64,000 bases of DNA from Silvibacterium dinghuense (lineage in GTDB: Bacteria; Acidobacteriota; Terriglobia; Terriglobales; Acidobacteriaceae). This document shows positions 54,493 through 56,601 of this stretch, in pieces; position 1 is the first letter of the stretch; every line of letters begins with the position of its first letter. The stretch covers positions 744,001-808,000 of the forward strand of contig NZ_SDMK01000001.1 in assembly GCF_004123295.1 (NCBI RefSeq). The letters are read 5' to 3'. The notes beneath the pieces were generated by a model. The model searched no databases. It was not told the DNA's origin and saw nothing but the letters and a program-made list of their open reading frames with translations. Made by a program: the position numbers and the translations under genes.

Positions 54493-54513
54493 CCCGCTAT
54501 TCGCTCAAAAGAA

Positions 54514-54539
54514 AAACGGCCCGCCGAAGCGGGCCGTTT
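54514..54539. terminator. Terminator between convergent small genes
   Basis: AAACGGCCCGC / GCGGGCCGTTT, an 11-bp perfect stem with loop CGAA, flanked by A and T runs. It likely ends both the 54277 gene and the moaD-like gene. Confidence 0.85.
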
Positions 54540-54555
54540 CCAATGCGGAGAACGC

Positions 54556-54915
54556 CTAGTAGCAGAGACACTCTTCCTGCCCACAGTAGGAGCAGCAACG
54601 AAGTTGCTCGGGCGCGAAGCGCGATTCGCCCTGCGCGCAGCAGCCGCCGGCGATCGACGGGATCACGAGCACTTCATCGCCATCCTGGAAAGCGTACTTC
54701 TCGTTGCCGAGGAAGCGGATGTCTTCCTCATTCACGTAGAAGTTGATGAAGCGGCGCACATTGCCCTGCTCGTCGCGCAGATGCGTCTTCAGGCCGGGAA
54801 AGGTGGTTTCGATCTCGGTGATCAGCTCGGGCAGATTCTGCGCGCTCGACTTCAGTTCCTTGGCACCATCGGTGTGCTTCTGAAAGGCATTCGGCAACAA
54901 AACTCTAACGGACAC
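54556..54915 (-). CDS. MoaD/ThiS-like sulfur carrier with Cys-rich tail
   Basis: A 119-residue beta-grasp protein. The MoaD/ThiS core runs to IPSIAGG, the Gly-Gly at residues 90-91 that normally ends such carriers and is activated to a thiocarboxylate. Here 28 residues follow, with seven cysteines (C92, C93, C107, C108, C111, C116, C118). A carrier needs a free Gly-Gly, so the tail would have to be cleaved. The GTG start is chosen because GGGGAGG precedes it. It overlaps the stop of threonine synthase by 11 bases, suggesting coupled translation. Part of the tail coding sequence matches a dispersed repeat. Partner unknown; thrC-linked sulfur transfer is inference. Confidence 0.72.
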   Translation of the reverse strand: MSVRVLLPNAFQKHTDGAKELKSSAQNLPELITEIETTFPGLKTHLRDEQGNVRRFINFYVNEEDIRFLGNEKYAFQDGDEVLVIPSIAGGCCAQGESRFAPEQLRCCSYCGQEECLCY

Positions 54916-56176
54916 TTGCAACCTCCCCAGCCAGTTCACCGCTGGCGGTCTTCTGATCGATGTAGGCTTCGAAATCGGAGAGCCGCGGACGTACCGCCTG
55001 CTCCACTTCATATGCGCCCGTCAGTGCGTCGGTCGTCTTCAGACCATTGCCCGTGATGACGGATACCGTAAGCTCATCCGGCTTGATGCGGCCGTGCGCG
55101 TAGAGCCGCGCGGTCACTGCCGTAGTCACGCCGCCCGCGGTCTCGGTAAAGATACCCTCGGTTTCGGCCAGTTCCTGAATTGCGGAGACGATCTCGACGT
55201 CCGAGACATCCTCGGCCCAGCCGCCGCTCTGGCGGATGGCGCGCGCCGCGTAGACACCGTCTGCGGGATTGCCGATCGCGAGCGAGCGTGCGATGGTTGC
55301 CGGGCGCTGCGGCTCGATGTGATCGGCACCGTTCTTCACCGCCGTCGAAATCGGCGAGCAACCCGTCGCCTGCGCTCCGAAGAAGCGCACTTCCTTATCT
55401 TCCACCAGGCCCAGGGCAACCAGCTCCTTGAAAGCCTTACGAATCTTGGTGATCAGCGAACCGCCGGCCATGGGGCACACGATGTTGTCGGGCAGGCGCC
55501 AGCCCAGCTGCTCGGCGATCTCATATCCGACCGTCTTCGAGCCCTCGGCGTAGTAGGGGCGCAGGTTCACATTCACAAAGCCCCAGTTGTAGCGCTCCGC
55601 GATCTGCGAGCACAGCCGGTTCACATGGTCGTAGTTGCCGTCGATGCGCACCAGGTTCGCACCATAGACCTGCGTATTCAGAATCTTTGCCGGCTCCAGG
55701 TCCGCCGGGACCAGGATGTAGGTCTTGAGACCCAGCCGCGCCGCGCCTGCGGCCACTGCGTTCGCCAGATTACCGGTCGAGGAGCATCCCACCGTGTCGA
55801 AGCCGAAGACCTGCGCATTCGCCAGAGCCGTTGCCACCACGCGATCCTTGAAGCTCAACGTCGGCACGCACACGGCATCGTTCTTGATGTACAGATTCGA
55901 GGCACCGATCCGCTTCGCCAGTCGCGGAGCCTTCAGCAGCGGCGTCCAGCCGGAGGGCGTTGCCGGGACGTAGTCCTCCGGCACCGGCAGCAGCGCCTGG
56001 TAACGCCACATGCTGTCCGGACCCTGCGCAATCTTCTCGCGGGTAAAGCTGCCGCGCGCCGCTTCGAGGTCGCAGAACACCTCAAGCGGGGAAAAGCACT
56101 CATCACAGATGGAAAGCGGGGTGTTTGGATACGTCTTCCCGCATTCCCGACATCGCAATTCATAGGCAAGCGCCAT
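54905..56176 (-). CDS. thrC: Threonine synthase with N-terminal zinc ribbon
   Basis: A 423-residue fold-type II PLP enzyme. Family members convert O-phosphohomoserine to threonine. The N-terminus carries a zinc-ribbon CxxC pair set (C9, C12, C24, C27). The PLP lysine is K110 in PTLSFKDRVVA, with SSTGNLANAVAAGAARLGLKTYI after it. The chain length fits the standard group. It is directly upstream of the sulfur-carrier gene, overlapping by 11 bases. A paralogue acting on a thiocarboxylate carrier, as CysM does with CysO, is possible but not demonstrated. Start ATG 56176. Confidence 0.88.
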   Translation of the reverse strand: MALAYELRCRECGKTYPNTPLSICDECFSPLEVFCDLEAARGSFTREKIAQGPDSMWRYQALLPVPEDYVPATPSGWTPLLKAPRLAKRIGASNLYIKNDAVCVPTLSFKDRVVATALANAQVFGFDTVGCSSTGNLANAVAAGAARLGLKTYILVPADLEPAKILNTQVYGANLVRIDGNYDHVNRLCSQIAERYNWGFVNVNLRPYYAEGSKTVGYEIAEQLGWRLPDNIVCPMAGGSLITKIRKAFKELVALGLVEDKEVRFFGAQATGCSPISTAVKNGADHIEPQRPATIARSLAIGNPADGVYAARAIRQSGGWAEDVSDVEIVSAIQELAETEGIFTETAGGVTTAVTARLYAHGRIKPDELTVSVITGNGLKTTDALTGAYEVEQAVRPRLSDFEAYIDQKTASGELAGEVASVR

Positions 56177-56601
56177 GAAACCCTCGATTCCGAGAGCTGC
56201 TGACGGACACCACAGGAGCTTTCCCCTATGGGTACAAATGCACGGGCATGCGTGACGTACTCTGCTGCAACATCTGGTACTGCAAACTACCCGGACCAAG
56301 AGCCCGGTACCACTTTGGGATTTGGCGAGATGCGATACTGCATTGCATCCCCGAATCTCATGTTCCCCGGTTTCCCAGGAGAGAGTTGACACCGATGTCT
56401 TAGATTGCCTAAGCCGGTTGTCGTGGCGTCACAGGGCCCGTCCCTCAGCCACTCTTCATGAAATTCAGGCTCGCTCGTAAGAGCAAACTTGAATAATCAT
56501 TTGATACCACAGTGGCCGTGCGGATGCAAGAAATCCTGTGGATATTTGCTGCCTGCGACCGTCCTTTATCTGGACTTCAGCCCTGGCCATACAACGCTGC
56601 A
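56177..56601. other. Leader region upstream of thrC
   Basis: About 425 bp with no gene recognised. A nested palindromic segment (GGTAC at 56277 with GTACC at 56308) is present. I saw no match to a known riboswitch class, including SAM or lysine types. Could be a long untranslated leader. Confidence 0.5.

Follow-up and report, generated by a model that had tools for sequence, protein, structure and literature searches.

A metO-like sulfur carrier of Silvibacterium dinghuense with a conserved cysteine-rich tail beyond Gly-Gly

Sulfur carriers are usually thought to need just a free Gly-Gly, and a short reading frame of Silvibacterium dinghuense raises the question of what becomes of such a carrier when a cysteine-rich stretch follows this point. 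The frame lies in the window, the whole stretch of 64,000 nucleotides that was analysed. The initial annotation had described a core ending at Gly90-Gly91 and then 28 residues with seven cysteines, and both translation and the Pfam ThiS match confirmed this, on the minus strand, which had been left unstated. The features of the locus are the following:

54556-54915, minus strand: metO-like sulfur carrier coding sequence (119 aa, GTG start at 54915, stop at 54556)
54643-54915, minus strand: beta-grasp (ThiS/MoaD/CysO) core, residues 1-91, the last two being Gly90-Gly91 (Pfam ThiS, nearest structures)
54559-54642, minus strand: C-terminal tail of 28 residues with 7 Cys after Gly-Gly (translation, relatives)
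54559-54597, minus strand: conserved tail motif CCSYCGQEECLCY (alignment, profile, pN/pS)
54905-56176, minus strand: probable metM, a PLP enzyme resembling threonine synthase, with a CxxC...CxxC stretch near its N-terminus (PF00291, TIGR00260)
56355-56464, minus strand: SAM riboswitch (RF00162) upstream of metM-metO (76.3 bits against a gathering score of 44.4, E 2e-17)
54508-54539, minus strand: intrinsic-terminator-like hairpin and T run directly after the metO stop (by inspection)

The carrier matched the Pfam ThiS family (PF02597) with 42.5 bits against a cut-off of 22.5, the match spanning residues 10-91 with Gly91 as its last residue; ThiS and Urm1 were the sole families matched at E 0.001. 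The nearest solved structures by sequence were mycobacterial CysO (3dwg, E 1.2e-17) and Amycolatopsis CysO (4n6e), which were also the nearest by the fold of the predicted carrier model, the top four Foldseek matches being CysO and SAMP1 chains (TMt 0.81-0.85). The product as a ThiS/MoaD-type sulfur carrier is well supported, and the identity given at the outset stands. Gly90-Gly91 is invariant across 54 chosen aligned rows, tailed and untailed (the frame-broken L143 is absent from these rows). As encoded, the carrier has no free C-terminal Gly, and with 28 residues beyond Gly-Gly it therefore either needs processing or is atypical. The AlphaFold model was confident for the core, with pLDDT below 50 at residues 90-107 and a mean of 52 for the last block; a confident tail structure was sought in this model and none was found.

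The tail has the sequence CCAQGESRFAPEQLRCCSYCGQEECLCY. Long tails of this kind begin with a linker of unconserved sequence, 3 to 28 residues in length, followed by CCSYCGxE(E/D/N)CxC and one or two residues. The motif CCSYCGxExCxC was common to 26 distinct acidobacterial tail-bearing sequences, with 8 of the 12 positions invariant and the codons varying, and the pooled pairwise pN/pS was 0.12 for the motif (pS 0.74) versus 0.15 for the core. The tail is a true conserved feature, more than chance, and its motif is kept by strong selection. A motif profile built from 23 long tails was searched against a sample of 200 genomes of the same family, this genome among them, taken from a larger group; it was found in 21 of them at E ≤ 0.004, in all 21 at the carrier, and the best remaining matches, on other proteins, were at E 0.2 or worse. 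The search was not fully sensitive, since a frame-displaced copy in genome G101 went unreported, so a few copies elsewhere could be missed too. No significant match to a known metal-binding family was obtained for the tail (Pfam at E 0.001; solved chains up to E 10), the lone solved-chain match up to E 10 being CSYCGRE of ribosomal protein L24e (E 1.4). The order of CxxCG and then CxC suggests a small metal site or redox switch, and the last 13 residues of the tail (CCSYCGxExCxC and one more) are probably a small element that responds to metal or redox state. Given that the Cys motif is conserved, some role before or during tail removal would be expected.

The possibility that a frame or sequencing error had created the tail, raised by the initial annotation itself, was ruled out because independent relatives carry it (26 distinct sequences). 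The hairpin lies beyond the stop codon, so the tail is not terminator DNA in translation. Read-through past the stop in untailed relatives, hinted at by matches crossing stops, was unsupported by frame readings: in a three-frame reading of 17 untailed loci and a six-frame pattern scan of loci collected from relatives, the motif was found off the carrier frame in L066 and L143 alone. Both represent the Acidipila sp. EB88 locus, in which the frame breaks at Gly-Gly and the motif comes next in another frame, either by a sequencing error or by a real loss.

Among the 200 family genomes, 162 had any match to the carrier. The carrier set was defined as the 108 genomes with a best match at E ≤ 4.2e-27 and identity ≥ 47%; the matches below the gap had E 1e-19 or worse and identity ≤ 40% and were CysO-like where inspected. 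After Gly-Gly, 14 of the 108 carriers have nothing, 11 have one residue, 44 two, and 5 three; the rest comprise 12 other tails of 6-24 residues, 21 long Cys tails, and one break of frame inside Gly-Gly (G101), with the motif present in another frame. At least one residue stands beyond Gly-Gly in 93 of the 107 readable carriers; blocked Gly-Gly is the rule in the family sample. The motif tail occurs in 22 of the 108 carriers, one of them behind the frame break, which disposes of the idea that it might be found only here; that all homologues would stop at Gly-Gly proved equally wrong, with 14 of 108 ending there. The carriers extended past Gly-Gly but without the motif number 72, with tails of 1-24 residues.

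A quick tree was built from the carrier core and the MetM fragment, with the tail columns unused; its 111 rows represent 107 of the 108 carriers and 4 outgroups, L187 (a fragment without a threonine-synthase match) having been dropped. All 22 tailed rows fall inside one 38-row clade (SH-aLRT 92, not starred), and at least 4 changes of tail gain or loss are needed, 3 of them forced by well supported branches, in a tree with a very long branch for L149 and an unsure placement of L216. Nested among the tailed rows are two with a short tail or none: L140 and L027, the latter from Silvibacterium, the genus of the window. From these several changes and the nested short or untailed rows, the tail is dispensable in some lineages.

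A JAMM peptidase and an E1-like activating enzyme, both suggested for a search by the initial annotation, were found in the genome. One Prok-JAB/JAMM match was detected, in an operon CysM - JAMM - CysO - MoeB-rhodanese, and the E1-like enzymes comprise this MoeB-rhodanese (L002) and two other ThiF matches. The JAMM stretch GFYHSHPDHPAQWSKTD fits HxHxxxxxxxSxxD, the active-site motif. The CysO of the same operon terminates in Gly-Gly-Cys. Together with the extended ends in 93 of 107 family carriers, these matches bear out the proposed blocked Gly-Gly, and the predicted need for carrier processing is well supported. JAMM was present in 186 of the 200 family genomes and in 20 of the 22 tailed ones, the two without a match being incomplete drafts (G159, 90% complete, and G142, 77%); it was equally common in untailed genomes. 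Being near-universal in the family, it leaves little contrast for judging a link with the tail and is probably not specific to it, and no feature tied to the tail was seen in the JAMM sequences inspected by eye. Taken as a whole, the initial interpretation is partly supported: the carrier, its blocked end and the need for processing hold, whereas cleavage and metal binding by the tail are still proposals. It was made without the methionine context, namely the SAM riboswitch, the MetM-type partner and the lack of a MetX or MetA match. In one locus (L123) the JAMM domain is followed in the same frame by an apparent acetyltransferase (GNAT-like by eye).

The CysO genes near JAMM were read at 91 loci, of which 22 had no CysO match and two (G144 and G092) were dropped, leaving 67 genes. 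In 12 of the 67 genomes the CysO frame continues into MoeB, and in one (L298) it continues into an apparent small cupin domain, judged by eye. In the CysO-MoeB-rhodanese fusions (L256, L267, L268, L269, L270, L271, L277, L280, L285, L120, L127, and L137), the residue after Gly-Gly is Ala, Ser, Gly or Thr, the reading of L280 ending with the fetched stretch. The Gly of a carrier inside such a fusion could not be adenylated unless the chain were cut after Gly-Gly. Cys is the first residue after Gly-Gly in 33 of 93 MetO tails (23 of 72 among those without the motif) and in 15 of 53 unfused CysO tails, with 0 of 13 in the fusions; Ser or Ala opens 34 of the 93 MetO tails. CysO tails with at least three Cys were found in seven other genomes (L258, L260, L131, L118, L121, L266, and L292; for example, SGRMADCACSCCCCR or CCWYCCCR after Gly-Gly), none of them with the long CCSYCG motif, and it seems that such carriers have acquired Cys-rich ends more than once. 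A tendency of Cys-rich tails to be exclusive to either MetO or CysO was not significant (0 of the 15 motif-tailed genomes with unfused CysO versus 7 of 39, Fisher p 0.17). According to the excerpted text of PMC3227635, Mec+ hydrolyses the CysO-cysteine adduct and releases cysteine, so a carrier encoded with Gly-Gly-Cys would have a form that this peptidase already cuts. Cleavage between Gly82 and Ser83 is needed for MoaX to work, as stated in the excerpt of PMC4326299, and DRJAMM cuts a MoaD-MoaE fusion, leaving a C-terminal Gly, as the excerpt of PMC8832034 reports from earlier work. An operon of ThiS/MoaD, E1, JAB, and cysteine synthase was already recorded in Acidobacteria by PMC1779556, the main text of which does not mention threonine synthase.

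The likely partner of the carrier is indicated by the neighbouring gene. The metO start lies inside the last codons of metM (an 11-base overlap), for which the ATG at 56176 was chosen, the longer in-frame alternative being a GTG at 56392. A threonine-synthase match lies upstream on the same strand for 107 of the 108 family carriers. The product of the window gene shows 56-57% identity to three carrier-linked cyanobacterial enzymes versus 33% to a second ThrC of the genome, which adjoins thrB. No association was seen between the tail and the N-terminal Cys stretch of MetM, which occurs in tailed and untailed acidobacterial loci alike. The SAM riboswitch upstream of the pair points to methionine rather than threonine. 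A scan of species genomes yielded 70 loci related to the carrier, and among 20 chosen from these, a SAM riboswitch was found in 16 (15 of 15 acidobacterial loci and one Scalindua locus); L083, L084, and L091 had neither a SAM riboswitch nor a T-box. An Armatimonadetes relative (L090, positions 1361-1630) has a T-box leader where the acidobacterial relatives have the SAM riboswitch.

The enzymes of the canonical route showed a corresponding pattern. No match to MetX or to HTS/MetA was obtained in the own genome (99.93% complete), with models that were positive in 9 and 8 of 14 control genomes, respectively; one full-length Cys/Met PLP enzyme is encoded beside a CysK-like gene. Canonical homoserine acyltransferases were absent from the matches of the own genome, yet strong MetX was present in 15 of the 108 genomes with the carrier pair, against 43 of the 92 without it (Fisher p 4e-7, kinship ignored). 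Strong MetX was also found in 4 of the 22 tailed genomes, and neither the pair nor strong MetX in 49 of the 92. A MetX match was called strong at ≥ 280 bits, a threshold set after a gap between 283 and 180 bits was seen; the 180-bit match, a fragment from G121, which lacks the pair, was counted as not strong, and the curated 500-bit cut-off of the model was passed by no sample genome and by none of the 14 controls.

In Streptomyces, MetO is reportedly a thiocarboxylated sulfur donor adjoining MetM, and the MetM/MetO route is said to do without the canonical acylation route. As given in the excerpt of PMC12172450, Hasebe et al. 2024 found MetM, a Streptomyces homocysteine synthase that converts O-phosphohomoserine, and metM of S. 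albulus has a SAM riboswitch upstream. The same excerpt describes a metO-like Microcystis gene adjoining thrC, with a sulfur carrier annotation; the Microcystis ThrC, a relative of the window enzyme, was reported mainly as a threonine synthase/deaminase, and its induction brought no rise in methionine. The riboswitch, the overlap, the thrB-linked ThrC, and the lack of detected MetX or MetA fit MetM/MetO, so homology and genome context favour metO as the identity of the carrier gene, and metM, for a putative homocysteine synthase, as that of the gene at 54905-56176. For genomic evidence, this putative pathway assignment is strong, its link to MetM/MetO having been drawn through the cyanobacterial relatives and the excerpt of PMC12172450 rather than through S. 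albulus sequences.

The reading towards which we lean is that metO encodes a pro-carrier of a MetM/MetO-type pathway, matured by JAMM, with the tail as a conserved, probably metal- or redox-active element. The metM-metO mRNA would yield the pro-carrier when S-adenosylmethionine is low, and Gly91 would stay blocked by the tail until proteolysis after Gly-Gly, for which the single JAMM enzyme found in this genome is the likeliest candidate. The MoeB-rhodanese would then charge Gly91 with sulfur as a thiocarboxylate, and MetM would form homocysteine from O-phosphohomoserine and the charged carrier. The metal- or redox-responsive element of the tail may dock or gate the maturation. Several observations weigh against this reading: two tailed drafts gave no JAMM match, JAMM is just as frequent in untailed genomes, the tail has come or gone several times, strong MetX accompanies the pair in some genomes, the Microcystis enzyme behaved mainly as a threonine synthase/deaminase, Cys never opens the stretch after Gly-Gly in the CysO fusions, and the modelled tail has no confident fold. 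A more specific version, tentative and in our view rather doubtful, lets the Cys motif sense metal or redox state and thereby gate homocysteine synthesis, where maturation would set the active carrier atop the SAM riboswitch, and a metal-bound or reduced tail would differ from a free tail in JAMM access. If it were true, the Cys-rich CysO tails in seven other genomes would be independent versions of the same idea, and the Gly-Gly-Cys carriers would be gene-encoded counterparts of the carrier-cysteine adduct, already a JAMM substrate, which would explain why tails originate so easily.

Two readings concern the fate of the tail. It might stay on as a fixed metal-binding or docking module, making the protein a subunit, regulatory or structural, of its threonine-synthase-like neighbour and not a working carrier; CxxCG is a common zinc-knuckle shape, the motif is constrained like the core, the lone solved-chain match is CSYCGRE of L24e at E 1.4, and the cleavage is a predicted step. 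We consider it unlikely, however, as Gly90-Gly91 is invariant in tailed and untailed rows and 14 of the 108 relatives end exactly there, showing that functional forms with a free Gly-Gly do exist, and the linker ranges from 3 to 28 residues. Decidedly unlikely is a disposable cap, in which the cysteines would be by-products of drift after Gly-Gly and JAMM would remove whatever comes next. The wide variation of the 72 tails without the motif and the loss of the tail in some lineages are in line with it, but purifying selection on the terminal motif is strong, at a pS of 0.74, and a mere cap would not retain 8 invariant residues over 26 sequences.

Other readings change the chemistry or the pathway. 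The Cys cluster could serve as a sulfur donor or relay, by passing a tail persulfide to the neighbouring Gly or by a Gly-Cys rearrangement that charges the carrier during cleavage. Cys is the commonest first residue after Gly-Gly in MetO and unfused CysO, and carrier-Gly-Gly-Cys equals the CysO-cysteine adduct hydrolysed by Mec+ (excerpt of PMC3227635); the reading is nevertheless very unlikely, given that the usual route, MoeB-rhodanese, is present in the genome and Ser or Ala opens 34 of 93 MetO tails. A role for the carrier outside methionine synthesis, in making cysteine or a metal cofactor, with the threonine-synthase-like neighbour pointing to threonine instead, is highly improbable. The nearest solved relatives are CysO proteins, and threonine is made by Microcystis ThrC in the excerpt of PMC12172450, but this reading is opposed by the SAM riboswitch upstream of the pair, the second, thrB-linked ThrC, the separate CysO in the CysM operon, and the inverse pattern of the pair and MetX across the 200 genomes.

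In one bacterial family, most genes for the predicted methionine and cysteine carriers specify a product whose end is blocked; in some the obstacle is a strongly conserved Cys motif, in others the activating enzyme itself, fused to its carrier. Whether the synthesis of sulfur amino acids includes a regulated maturation step thereby becomes testable. On genomic evidence, the MetM/MetO route would extend to Acidobacteriota. A Cys-rich tail on such a carrier appeared in none of the titles and abstract openings among the matches listed, a weak indication, as subscription literature was mostly outside the scope. With the Streptomyces MetM/MetO pair, the locus would reportedly share an adjacent carrier as thiocarboxylate donor and the lack of a canonical acylation route. 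As described in the excerpt of PMC12172450, both also have a threonine-synthase homologue, predicted here to use O-phosphohomoserine, with a SAM riboswitch upstream. The Silvibacterium carrier differs from the Streptomyces pair as described in its conserved Cys-rich C-terminal tail, the end of Streptomyces MetO standing outside this comparison. The mycobacterial CysO-CysM-Mec+-MoeZ system has the same carrier fold, a PLP-enzyme partner, and JAMM and MoeB-rhodanese in the genome; unlike there, the partner here is threonine-synthase-like and not CysM, the genome has its own separate CysO operon besides metO, and the aligned solved CysO chains stop at Gly-Gly, whereas the Silvibacterium carrier runs 28 residues on. 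In QbsE- and HcyS-type carriers, very short tails after Gly-Gly are removed by a JAMM peptidase. Residues beyond Gly-Gly and a JAMM in the genome are found here as well, and a similar cleavage may be expected, but the tail is 28 residues long and carries a conserved Cys motif. MoaX and the MoaD-MoaE fusions (excerpts of PMC4326299 and PMC8832034) resemble the Silvibacterium protein in that the carrier is made blocked, cleavage being needed there and presumed here; the downstream part is an enzyme subunit in those proteins and a short Cys motif in this one.
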